NCBI RefSeq assembly: GCF_000499385.1
Contig: NW_013654529.1
Span: 1 to 64,000 of the forward strand
Direction of reading: 5' to 3'
Source of the DNA: Eimeria necatrix
Lineage: Eukaryota > Apicomplexa > Conoidasida > Eucoccidiorida > Eimeriidae
DNA: 64,000 nucleotides
Shown here: one piece after another, positions 4,582-29,562 of the stretch
Layout of the letters: the number at the start of each line of letters is the position of its first letter
How positions within the stretch are numbered: position 1 is the first letter of the stretch
Translations under genes and position numbers: made by a program
Notes under the pieces: generated by a model
The model's input: only the letters and a program-made list of their open reading frames with translations
The model's database searches: none
What the model was told of the DNA's origin: nothing

Positions 4582-5030
4582 GTGGCTCTCGGCCTGCTGC
4601 TGTCCCTCTGGGAATGCTTCAATGACAGTGTCTTGGCCCTCGCGCTGCTCCCTCAACTCCAAATGTTCTACTCCAAAAGGCCCCGCAAAGTTTCCCATTT
4701 GCTCGGCACTTTTGTCGCAATGCTTTTCTGCGCCAGAGTCCTCGCCTTCCTCTACTGGTGCGGTGTACATACACCCCAGACGCCCTCCGCACTTGTTTCT
4801 TTTCTTTTCTTTCCCTTTTATTTCCTTTTCTCTCCCTTTTATTTCCTTTTCTTTTCCTTTTATTTATTCGCTTTTTCTTTTCTTTTTCTTTTTAAAGCGC
4901 TTTCAGCTTTTGCATGCAGCTCCGGCTGCATGCAAAAGTGCAGACGCGGTGTACGTACAGTGCACTTGCGTGCGCGCGTTCCATTTGGAGTCGCTTCCAA
5001 GCTCCCTTTCTGCATTCCGCTTTATTTTAC

Positions 5031-5061
<31 letters not shown>

Positions 5062-5265
5062 TATTATTATTATTTTAATTTAATTTAATTTGTTTTCGTT
5101 TGTCTTCGCAGGCTTTCGTTCCCGCTGTTCCACCGCAGCGAGCCCACGGGCCGCGGCATTCACCTCGCCACTGAGGCTCTTAACATTTTAATTTTGTTGG
5201 ACTTTTTGTATTATTACGTCAAGGCCAAACTGGCCGGCCAGGAGGACATTGCCTTGCCCATTTGA
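4081..5265 (+). CDS. ER lumen protein-retaining receptor (ERD2/KDEL receptor)-like, two exons
   Basis: Multi-span membrane protein of the early secretory pathway; family members recycle KDEL-type ER proteins from the Golgi. Exons 4081-4757 and 5112-5265 join in phase 2 (TG|G) to give 276 aa, longer than the usual 210-220. Family-like features are the repeated hydrophobic spans, the FRTSYEQQRDSFGLKYL segment (compare FKATYDGNHDTF in ERD2), ALLPQLQMF after the fifth span, and a C-terminal LLDFLYYYVKAKLAGQ matching CDFFYLYITKVLKG. The extra length comes partly from a run of 10 Ser encoded by AGC repeats (4549-4580) between membrane segments. The intron (4758-5111) holds a near-palindrome 5 nt after the donor, a ~100-nt pyrimidine tract, a hairpin and an ATTT/ATT repeat. 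It could be a divergent ERD2 paralogue rather than the main receptor. Confidence 0.8.
4758..5111 (+). other. repeat-packed intron of the KDEL-receptor-like gene
   Basis: From the donor: near-palindrome GTGTACATACAC (4763-4774), a pyrimidine-rich tract (about 4793-4892), a 14-bp inverted repeat (4907-4920 against 4925-4938, spacer TCCG), another near-palindrome (4949-4960), then (ATTT)n and (ATT)n (about 5026-5088) before TCTTCGCAG. The reading phase across the intron supports its boundaries. Confidence 0.8.
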
Positions 5266-5283
5266 ACGCCAATACATCCCCCT

Positions 5284-5465
5284 GCATGCATGCATTTGCA
5301 TGCATGCATGCATGCATGCATGCATTTGCATGCATGCGTGCATGCATGCGTGCATGCATTTGCATGCATGCATGCAGGGTTCGCATGCGTGCGCGCATGC
5401 TGCATTCGCATGCATGCATGCATTTGCATGCATGCAAATGCATGCATGCATGCAAATGCATGCAT
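5284..5465. repeat. (TGCA)n array with TGCATTTGCA variants
   Basis: Dense runs of TGCATGCA are interrupted by TTTGCA and GTGCA units. It lies 20 bp after the stop of the KDEL-receptor-like gene, probably in its 3' untranslated region. Confidence 0.95.
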
Positions 5466-5581
5466 GGATTGGGGAATTGGCAGTTGTGTGGAACTTTGTG
5501 TTGACTGAAGTGCGAAGTGAAGTGCCGGTCTTTTGCTGGCTGAGTTGGGCGCAGCAGAGCCGGTGCGTTTCAAGTGCTGCG

Positions 5582-26752: not shown

Positions 26753-27602
26753 TAAGGGCAAGTCCGTCGCTCATCACCGTAAAAAGGAGAAAAATTGAGT
26801 TAAAAGAACTTTTGGGATTCATTTGGATGTTTTTTTTGCAACAAAGACCACTGCTAGGGAGGGAAAGCTGGCGCTGGGCTGTCGGCCAGTGCCGCGCCGC
26901 GCGAGTGTCTCACCAGAGGCCGCGAGTTGCTCTTGTCTTTTTGCCTGGAATTACATTAATTAGAATCTTTTTGCATTTTTATTTTCAAATTAATAAATGT
27001 TAAAGAATTTTTAAATTAATAAATGTTCAAGAATTGCCACTTACTTCTTTTTCGGATTCCGCAAAGGACTCTGGACTGTCTTGCATGCGGCAAAAACACC
27101 AACACCGAGTTGAACTCGCCAGCTGGAGCCCCCGCTGTCACCCCAGACTGCTGAATTTATAATTTCTAATTTATTTATTATTAATTTATATTATTAAAAT
27201 TATATTTTATGCCACTTTAAACAGGAAATAGCCCCTGAGGTCCCCTGCAACTCCGCCTCTGCTGCGCGGCCCCGGGCAAACGAAATTCAGAAAAGCTTTT
27301 GCAAAATAATGCAACACAGCGGCTTTTCATAATTCAGAAAATTCAGTACTGGAGAACTCTATGAAGCAAATAAACAAAAAAAAGTGAACAATTGCTGTGT
27401 GGCAGTTTCAAGTGCTCCTTTGATTGCCCCTTCCCCGGCGTTTTCTTGACAAGAAACGGCGAATAAGTTGAACAGGAACTTCTCTTTAATCCAGAACTTG
27501 CAGATTGCCTTCAAGTGGTCTTCATCTCCAGCAATTCGCACTTGTTAATATTTGTTCGTTTCATTTCTTGACTAGCTGCCCAGCCCTGCGTAAAAATTGG
27601 CC
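26753..27602. other. AT-rich interval upstream of the phospholipase
   Basis: No gene recognised with confidence. A 60-codon minus-strand frame at 27359-27541 looks protein-like but has no clear partner exon. AT-rich sequence fills 26.95-27.25 kb. Confidence 0.5.
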
Positions 27603-27700
27603 GCTGCAGCAGCAGCTGCAGCAGCTGCTGCAGCAGCAGCTGCAGCAGCAGCTGCAGCAGCAGCTGCAGCAGCAGCTGCAGCAGCAGCTGCAGCAGCAGC
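27603..27700. repeat. (CTGCAGCAGCAG)n array just 3' of the acidic-protein gene
   Basis: About eight 12-bp units mixing CAG and CTG, so that CAGCTG recurs and the strand can self-pair. It ends 5 bases before the minus-strand stop codon at 27706-27708. Confidence 0.9.
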
Positions 27701-27705
27701 CTTTT

Positions 27706-28604
27706 CTATGCCTCTTCGTTGAGCTGCTCGTCTTCGGCCTCTTCTGCCTCCGCCTGGGCAATTGCATTTGCTCTTTTTTCGAGTTCTGCTGCTTCTGCAG
27801 CTTCTGCTTTTATTTCTTTCTTGTTGAGTTCCTCCTGGGCCTCCGCAATCTTCTCTTCTGCCTTTTCAAGCTCCTTTTCCTCTTGCTTGCACTCTGTGTC
27901 CGTCAGTTGAAATAAAAATGCATGCAGCGTTCACCAGCAAGTTTCAACTTCGCAAACCTTCCTCTTCTCCCCCCTCTTCTGGCTCAGCTTTTGCTTCGGC
28001 TGCCTCACTGGGCCCCTCCCCTTTCTCTTCGGCAGTTTCCATTTCAGAAAGAGAAGTTTCCGTTTCTTTGGGGCTTTCAGGGGCTTCTTTTTCGCCTTCT
28101 GGAGCTCCAAACTTGCACTGTGGGAGTTTCCCTTGGCCCTATTCCTGTGGCGCTGTCTTACGTTCTGCTTCTTCAGTCTTTTCTTCACTTTCGCTGCCCT
28201 CTGTTGTTTGCAAAAAATAGACTCGTGCAGTTAGTGCAAAGAAGCCGTAGCTGCAAACCTCCGTCGGGTTCAAGCGCGTGCAGATGCGCCTTAACTGAGG
28301 CAAGCACAGGAGACCCTGAGGAAAAAATAAGTTCCACTTATTTCAAAAACCTAACACGAAATCTTACAAGACTTTGTGTTCGATTCAGGCAGGTGAGTGG
28401 GAAGTCGCTGGCGCCGCGCGGCGGTGCCGCGCGAACTGCCAAATGCAACTTTCAAATCATTCTCCGCCGCAGCTCCAAAAACTGCGGGAGCTGCCCAAAT
28501 GCAAAAATACACGGAAAAACGAAACATTTTTGTTTTTTATCGAGTCTATAACTCTCACTTGGGAACGCCCGTCCAGCAGGATTCGCCCGGCGCTCTGCCA
28601 CCAT
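27706..28604 (-). CDS. small acidic coiled-coil protein, unrecognised, five exons
   Basis: I do not recognise the family. Exons (minus): 28604-28559, 28435-28368, 28315-28162, 28104-27958, 27893-27706. Phases agree at all four introns, giving 603 nt (200 aa), the main argument that it is real. Residues 1-40 are basic. A middle part reads LLCLPQLRRICTRLNPTEVC, then GFFALTARVYFLQ. The last 110 residues are very rich in Glu, Lys and Ala (EEKELEKAEEKIAEAQEEL), predicting a coiled coil. The proposed ATG at 28604 lies 8 bases downstream of palindrome copy 7. The 5' end is uncertain: an exon-like frame at 28980-28795 (SAAFRYEEGSYAVRF) could be spliced in upstream, making the palindrome coding. Confidence 0.55.
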
Positions 28605-29562
28605 TACGGAGGTGTACGTACACTCCAGGCACCACAGCCTCCAGCTTCCATATGCTGAAGGTATAACAACTTTTTCTGTTTGCGTCGATCAATTAGGTTT
28701 CTAATGCCTTCCTCGTTAGCGCCATCGTATTAGGTGGTGACTCTTTGTGCACATTCTACAATTAGTTCCGTTTTTTAAGGCATTTTAGTACCTGTATGTT
28801 GGAACCCTTCTGGACAGCCTGTCCTGCATCTGCTGCGAAGTGTCTACGAATCGCACTGCGTAGCTTCCCTCCTCATATCGGAAAGCCGCAGAAAACTCCA
28901 AATTGTGAATAACTGTTGCTGTCTTTGGTGTTTTCTGACTGCCTGTTGCAGGGGCTTGCTGGCCCTGCGATGGAGTGGTGGCCCACAGCTGCATGTGCAG
29001 TGCAAATTAGCCAGTTGGCGCACTCATTTGAACGAAAAAACATCAATTTTGACATTTTAAGAACAGAAAAGTTGAAATTTGTGCACTTTTTTGCAGCTTT
29101 AGCGCAGATCTGCAGCAGTCGGTTCGGCGTGGCCTCTGGTGTCGCGGTGGGGCCTCGATGGCCTCGACGGCGTCGCCTGCGGTGTACGCGGGGAATTGAA
29201 AAGTTCAAGTTTTGAATTTTTGTGAATTTGAATTATTTTATTATTTCTTTTGTGTGTTGGCGCTTTGAGTCCACGGAGCCGCCAACGCGCAGTGTTCCCT
29301 CTTGTTTCATTTCCCGTGAAGAACTCTCCAGCCAAGTCCGTAGACAGTCCATCCTTCTTTGGAAATTGAATCTGTTTTTGCAAAAAAGGCATTTTGCCTT
29401 TTGCTGCAGACACTTGAAGCGCTGCAGTTTCCCGCGGGAGCTGCTGAGAGCCGAAAAACTCGAATGAATTCAAAGTTTACTCCCCAATGTCTCCAAAATA
29501 AACAGCAATTGGACTTGTAGTCTCAACGAAATAAACATGCAAAAGCCACATCCGAAGCAGCT
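28605..29562. other. interval before protoporphyrinogen oxidase
   Basis: Holds palindrome copy 7 and minus-strand frames at 28795-28980 and 29099-29470 that look partly coding but fit no family I know. A divergent promoter for protoporphyrinogen oxidase is expected near 29.5 kb. Confidence 0.4.
28612..28623. repeat. palindrome GTGTACGTACAC, copy 7
   Basis: Perfect copy 8 bases upstream of the proposed ATG of the acidic-protein gene. Confidence 0.95.

Follow-up and report, generated by a model that had tools for sequence, protein, structure and literature searches.

A palindromic dyad multiplied in the genome of Eimeria necatrix is a candidate binding site for a dimeric protein

A 12-bp palindrome, GTGTACGTACAC, recurs in the first 64,000 nucleotides of contig NW_013654529.1 of Eimeria necatrix (hereafter the window), and its distribution, form, and possible binder were analyzed here. 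The palindrome is neither a chance word nor a single satellite, and the analysis supports reading it as the dispersed target of a DNA-binding protein. It is enriched, two-fold symmetric, and built of modular half-sites at zero spacing; its copies are biased toward certain segments and keep a preferred spacing and a phase relative to G+C content. By analogy with Plasmodium, its central ten bases, TGTACGTACA, may be the core of a dyad of about 22 bp for a homodimeric protein of the PFG type, the element having multiplied in Eimeria. We give this whole proposal a probability of roughly 45%; that the palindrome is a protein-binding site is much surer than that it is a PFG site.

To count the element, the window's own assembly (44.0 Mb, 1,148 contigs, of which the window is contig C888) was searched. 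There were 2,933 perfect copies of GTGTACGTACAC compared with 6 of the reversed word, and 5,134 compared with 205 when up to one mismatch was allowed. A genome-wide count had been proposed in an earlier reading of the window from its letters alone (the sequence-only reading), and the counts near expectation that it had named as the adverse outcome did not occur. All seven perfect copies that it had placed in the window were confirmed, and each of 100 dinucleotide shuffles of the window contained 0. Genome-wide, perfect copies outnumbered all 36 single-mismatch neighbors combined (2,201), of which up to 1,261 differed at the center. With the center left free, GTGTANNTACAC was found 4,194 times against 42 for the control, and the center of the non-CG sites was CA or TG in 8 of 8 among the 50 matches listed.

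Sequence form was studied in a sample consisting of the window and loci L005-L028 (263,302 called bases), which contained 92 copies of TGTACGTACA, or 55 non-redundant ones after removal of neighbors within 100 bp. Loci L005-L010 and L025-L028 were selected for holding copies, and L011-L024 were 14 stretches at contig starts for which copies were disregarded; the latter held 17 perfect copies against 8.0 predicted from the genome mean. When palindromic 10-mers were ranked by the number of 1-kb bins occupied in the window and L005-L024, loci partly picked for holding copies, TGTACGTACA stood third, behind two CAG-type words. Among the open-access papers searched, none contained both 'Eimeria' and TGTACGTACA, and the 12-mer itself was met in a single unrelated one.

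In full, the element spans about 22 bp as a dyad, approximately 5'-YTSRGG-TGTACGTACA-CCYSAR-3'. Outward from the core on both sides, the arm consensus of the 55 sites reads C, C/T, C/T/G, C/G, A/G, and G/A, with little information past position 6. No excess of arm-to-arm matching was detected at positions 1-6 of these sites (lowest P 0.085), and of the 12 arm positions tested, only position 8, beyond the conserved part, gave P 0.016. Since the arms vary independently, the pattern fits a dimer that reads each arm separately and not a selected hairpin; hairpin or RNA structure was accordingly rejected as the principal explanation, because the conserved arm positions do not covary.

The half-sites are modular, each being GTGTAC or GTGTCT, and they abut directly. 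The mixed-half form GTGTCTGTACAC occurred at 1,649 sites genome-wide (820 + 829) compared with 6 (3 + 3) for the control, and GTGTCT stood on both halves at 101 sites compared with 4. The spacing between halves in the sample was 0 bp in 81 sites and 1-4 bp in none; the halves must therefore abut, which suggests that the dimer would be rigid.

The element also occurs in tandem arrays (L028:2391-2938 on contig C21, C37:216051-216435, C113:34090-34705, and C259:18844-18895), across which the palindrome is kept, the spacers are unrelated, and the unit lengths differ (for example, about 17, 22, 25, and 45 bp). An array of GTGTCTGTACAC at C22:77185-78112 has 30 copies listed, all on one strand and mostly 17-20 bp apart. 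When one tandem array was translated and used as a protein query, no relative emerged, as none of 79 candidates had an expectation value up to 10.

A candidate for the binder comes from Plasmodium berghei, in which TGTRNNYACA is reported as a female-specific cis-element of ten bases (PMC10945693). According to the same source, PFG binds this element even without AP2-FG, AP2-FG binding requires PFG, and mutation of the element drops PFG binding to background; PFG is described there as lacking any recognized domain but having two conserved regions, and its homologues are reported from Toxoplasma, Eimeria tenella, and Vitrella (PMC10945693). Both TGTACGTACA and its CA/TG form satisfy TGTRNNYACA, and the sample contained 114 words of this consensus, 92 of them TGTACGTACA and 16 the CA/TG form. 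It is this motif match, together with the reported homologue, that leads us to propose PFG. A homodimeric, sequence-specific DNA-binding protein would recognize the two-fold-symmetric site, each subunit reading a single half-site (GTGTAC or, more weakly, GTGTCT) and making outer contacts. This protein would most likely be the coccidian counterpart of PFG, possibly with an AP2 partner. Within repeat-rich segments the element would have expanded to several thousand copies, located in introns, intergenic regions, splice-site edges, tandem arrays, and some exons. Once bound, these sites would probably regulate genes of the sexual stages and contribute to nucleosome positioning. Recognition by a protein, the identity of the binder, the life stage, and an effect on transcription or nucleosomes are thus the steps that we infer.

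Several observations weigh against the assignment to PFG. TGTRNNYACA takes any NN, whereas the Eimeria element has almost only CG or CA/TG there, and the 1,649 GTGTCTGTACAC sites break the R at position 4. In Plasmodium the sites are found upstream of genes, but many Eimeria copies lie in introns, exons, or tandem arrays. The double-CT sites (101) are fewer than the approximately 232 that our arithmetic predicts from independent halves, which indicates that two weak halves are disfavored. The dominance of perfect copies could also reflect recent spread.

Neighboring copies favor spacings of about 145-230 bp, a preference that is probably real, with moderate support, and softer than the first sample implied. 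In the sample, collapsed nearest neighbors numbered 14 at 143-203 bp, 0 at 82-142 bp, and 2 at 204-264 bp; with jittered positions, no more than 1 run in 4,000 gave as many as 14 at 143-203 bp, and 0.1-1% of runs gave 0 at 82-142 bp. Among the matches listed for contigs C1-C99, the first 50 of each search, isolated pairs numbered 21, 6, 8, and 6 at 143-203, 82-142, 204-264, and 326-386 bp, respectively, and 14, 6, 8, and 6 (P 0.028) after removal of the first-sample contigs; pairs with an intervening copy or a visible variant core were removed from these classes by eye, and a few undetected variants may still be included. Genome-wide and unfiltered, with tandem arrays included, the same bins contained 243, 212, 172, and 127 pairs.

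The data strongly support that the copies sit on crests of an oscillation of about 175 bp in guanine plus cytosine (G+C) content. Around 30 isolated copies (no other copy within 600 bp), the G+C fraction starts from 0.66 at the site and passes through a first trough of 0.45 (about 95 bp away), a further crest of 0.58 (about 195 bp), and a second trough of 0.47 (about 295 bp). This contrast was reached by 0 of 2,000 control sets with matched local G+C and by 0 of 2,000 sets that were locus-matched as far as possible. Autocorrelation was computed for the window and L006-L028, over 24 segments that each had under 2,000 undetermined bases (N) and together 192,674 bases after masking; L005, L009, L010, L014, L016, L020, L024, and L027, with at least 2,000 N, were excluded. 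With simple repeats and 100 bp around the copies masked, peaks appeared at about 170-175 bp and about 340 bp, and later maxima were small and irregular. Moving-average detrending can produce lobes, and the autocorrelations were rerun without detrending and with masking. Before masking, 23 of the 24 segments showed a positive contrast, and it far exceeded that of block-shuffled sequence. The oscillation, with a period near 170-180 bp, was also found away from the palindrome and was weaker in copy-poor segments; two copy-rich segments, L007 and L028, lost it once masked. It resembles a nucleosome imprint on base composition. Together, the spacing preference and the oscillation suggest nucleosome phasing, and a literature search combining Eimeria with nucleosome positioning found nothing relevant.

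The copies track CAG-rich sequence: 50 of 51 cores lay in the 28 of 36 five-kb bins that had at least 2 CAG runs (Spearman 0.57, P 0.0002). CAG richness was insufficient by itself, as L011, with 85 CAG runs per 5-kb bin, had no copy, and three window bins past 30 kb with 8-18 CAG runs also held none. This distribution recalls the feature-rich segments reported for E. tenella (PMC3505466). Comparison of the flanks of 49 independent sites by blastn gave 151 matches, of which 25 were read, all of them telomere-like or CAG repeats, and the interiors of 15 listed pairs of copies looked unrelated by eye. The counts, flanks, and CAG-bin distribution support the earlier view of a dispersed element, not one satellite, that is concentrated in repeat-rich sequence. 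Outside the window, the copy at C4:28280 codes for the residues VYVH of a dynein heavy chain (DHC_N1) and aligns without gaps to the outer-arm dynein beta chain 7k58_B, so that this copy appears to have arisen by substitution, without insertion. PDB entry 7k58 is from Tetrahymena.

These observations bear on several other explanations of the element. A dimeric protein might act mainly by phasing nucleosomes or organizing repeat-rich segments, with gene regulation secondary. The sample neighbors, which fill 143-203 bp and leave 82-142 bp empty, the isolated pairs on C1-C99, the G+C contrast that no control set matched, and the two autocorrelation peaks all point in this direction; the softer counts obtained without the first-sample contigs, the weaker oscillation in copy-poor segments, and its loss from L007 and L028 after masking do not, and we hold this explanation to be unlikely. 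A related possibility joins the two ideas: a PFG-like dimer bound thousands of times might fix nucleosome arrays of about 175-190 bp and so imprint a G+C oscillation of matching period, with the element on its crests. This, too, is doubtful. Pairing of intron ends, considered as another cause of the spacing, was weakened by the stretch between the L007 copies at 8115 and 8281, which is largely coding (dynein), and by the copies at 5582-5920 of the window, which are intergenic. It is somewhat less likely again that the palindrome is a selfish or mutational product with no present protein function, a self-complementary word that triggers tandem duplication or is propagated by gene conversion. 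Tandem arrays with many different unit lengths speak for this, and the excess of perfect over decayed copies is consistent with a recent spread; the flanks differ, however, the arms are constrained to about 6 bp on each side, the coding dynein copy arose by substitution, and a discrete alternative half-site exists at 1,649 places.

Another binder considered was an ApiAP2 dimer of the AP2-G type that has no relation to PFG, the sequence-only reading having linked the GTAC core to ApiAP2 proteins. Part of that link held, in that the GTGTAC of each half contains the GnGTAC core described for such domains (PMC12190761, PMC4537280), and of 29 AP2-domain matches in the genome, 22 pass the Pfam cut-off. 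Against it, GTGTACAC, the overlapping form, was at background when alone (2 seen in the sample, 1.1 expected), GTGTCT halves lack GTAC, and the core fits TGTRNNYACA better. An ApiAP2 link is plausible in kind, and an AP2-G-type site of this description is improbable. An RNA-level element, in which intron ends pair via the palindrome or a hairpin assists splicing, is very improbable: several window copies are intronic, one of them at a donor, and one cluster is near an acceptor, but the arms do not covary at their conserved positions, and intergenic and coding copies exist. Finally, the dispersed copies are many and some occur in pairs, as would be the case for terminal repeats or pieces of a single transposon or introner. 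The sequence-only reading had allowed for all copies being fragments of one transposon, and this was not supported, as the 25 flank matches read were simple repeats only, the dynein copy has no insertion, and the interiors of the 15 listed pairs look unrelated by eye. One transposon or introner is very probably not the source.

The sites found in the window are given in Table 1. The near copies reported earlier at 4763, 4949, and 5920 were found with one mismatch each; a fourth, placed at 5726, starts at 5725 and has two mismatches. The degenerate tandem cluster is real, with a period of 16 and 3.6 copies, and ends at 12292, not at 12293. As noticed before, no perfect copy lies within 31-64 kb, where three words with two mismatches (36494, 41702, and 45122) and one variant core, TGTATGTACA, at 42734 were found.

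Table 1. Copies and variants of the palindrome in the window
Feature	Position	Strand	Context
Asymmetric variant site GTGTCTGTACAC in GGGGTGTCTGTACACCG	3917..3928	+	Sequence match
Variant site GTGTACATACAC	4763..4774	.	Near end of matched part of ER-lumen-receptor gene; intron likely
Near copy GTGTACGTACAG	4949..4960	.	186 bp from 4763 site; intron likely
Perfect copy	5582..5593	.	Between ER-lumen-receptor gene and TM9SF gene
Variant copy CTGTACATACAC	5725..5736	.	143 bp from 5582
Near copy CTGTACGTACAC	5920..5931	.	195 bp from 5725
Asymmetric variant core (TGTACAGACA at 6513)	6512..6523	-	Upstream of TM9SF gene
Perfect copy, 5' splice site of TM9SF intron	8610..8621	.	Exon end 8611; intron GTACGTACACC... 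to 9022
Perfect copy, same TM9SF intron as 8610 copy	8775..8786	.	165 bp from 8610
Perfect copy, begins after 8 nt of TM9SF intron (about 10327-10490)	10335..10346	.	
Degenerate tandem cluster	12236..12292	.	Last unit 12281-12292 ends 16 nt before exon starting 12309
Perfect copy, probably coding (CTYT)	23246..23257	.	Poorly conserved linker of patatin-like protein
Perfect copy in probable intron of patatin-like gene (minus strand)	25039..25050	.	Upstream of conserved AVADQLLL
Perfect copy	28612..28623	.	Sequence match

The TM9SF exons were mapped by tblastn with the E. stiedai protein and by exon joins; the join 8611/9023 reads in frame as HVLVDQL, the E. stiedai counterpart being HVIVDQL. 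The closest relative of the TM9SF protein is that of E. stiedai (79% identical). The upstream region of this gene holds the sites at 5582, 5725, and 5920, and the other placed window copies are in or near introns, with one probably coding. The ER-lumen-receptor gene, an intron of which probably holds the sites at 4763 and 4949, was identified by a match to PF00810, and homologues of the patatin-like protein were found in E. media, E. stiedai, E. intestinalis, E. magna, E. flavescens, and Cyclospora. The E. stiedai homologues of TM9SF (window 8252-13994) and of the patatin-like protein (20311-25068), Esti_001927 and Esti_001923, share one contig (620,291 bases), and the gene neighborhood therefore seems conserved. 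A TM9SF record assigned to the pika Ochotona princeps shares 76% identity with the Eimeria query across 65% of that query and may contain Eimeria contamination. The window also contains pieces of a probable flavoprotein at 29645-32830 (NAD_binding_8; weak Amino_oxidase) and pieces of a protein with a MyTH4 domain at 41989-43122.

Should the core prove to be the coccidian female-gametocyte element, Eimeria sequence could be read directly for thousands of candidate regulatory sites, and the PFG homologue would become one testable candidate protein; gametocyte development leads to the oocyst, which is the transmission stage. If the phasing explanation is true, a sexual-stage regulatory site of apicomplexans would have turned into an architectural element in Eimeria, and spacing of nucleosome length together with the G+C oscillation would let chromatin structure be read from sequence alone.

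Among known systems, HIP1 (GCGATCGC) is described as a cyanobacterial palindrome found far above chance genome-wide (PMC4390886). The Eimeria palindrome is likewise repeated far beyond chance across its genome; HIP1, however, is a bacterial 8-mer linked to DNA methyltransferases, whereas the Eimeria element is eukaryotic, forms a dyad of about 22 bp, and has modular halves. The octamer TGCATGCA of apicomplexan genomes is reportedly bound by AP2-EXP-type domains (PMC6631176, PMC3505466). Like the Eimeria dyad, it is a palindrome over-represented in repeat-rich Eimeria segments, but the dyad is another word, longer and more rigid. In the window and L005-L028, TGCATGCA was about six-fold over-represented (151 seen, 24 expected under an order-2 model). 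The form printed by Young et al. in 2005 is said to be TGTANNTACA. For AP2-G-type domains, the two sources cited above report a preference for GnGTAC in Plasmodium and Theileria, with GTGTACAC as the AP2-G probe (PMC12190761, PMC4537280). Each half of the Eimeria dyad contains GTGTAC and is similar in this respect, whereas strong enrichment was observed only for the abutted inverted dimer. The ten-base element of Plasmodium is the closest in form, TGTACGTACA being a two-fold-symmetric instance of its consensus in a genus with a reported PFG homologue, that of E. tenella (PMC10945693); unlike it, the Eimeria sites have extended flanks, a CT half-site form, and several thousand copies.

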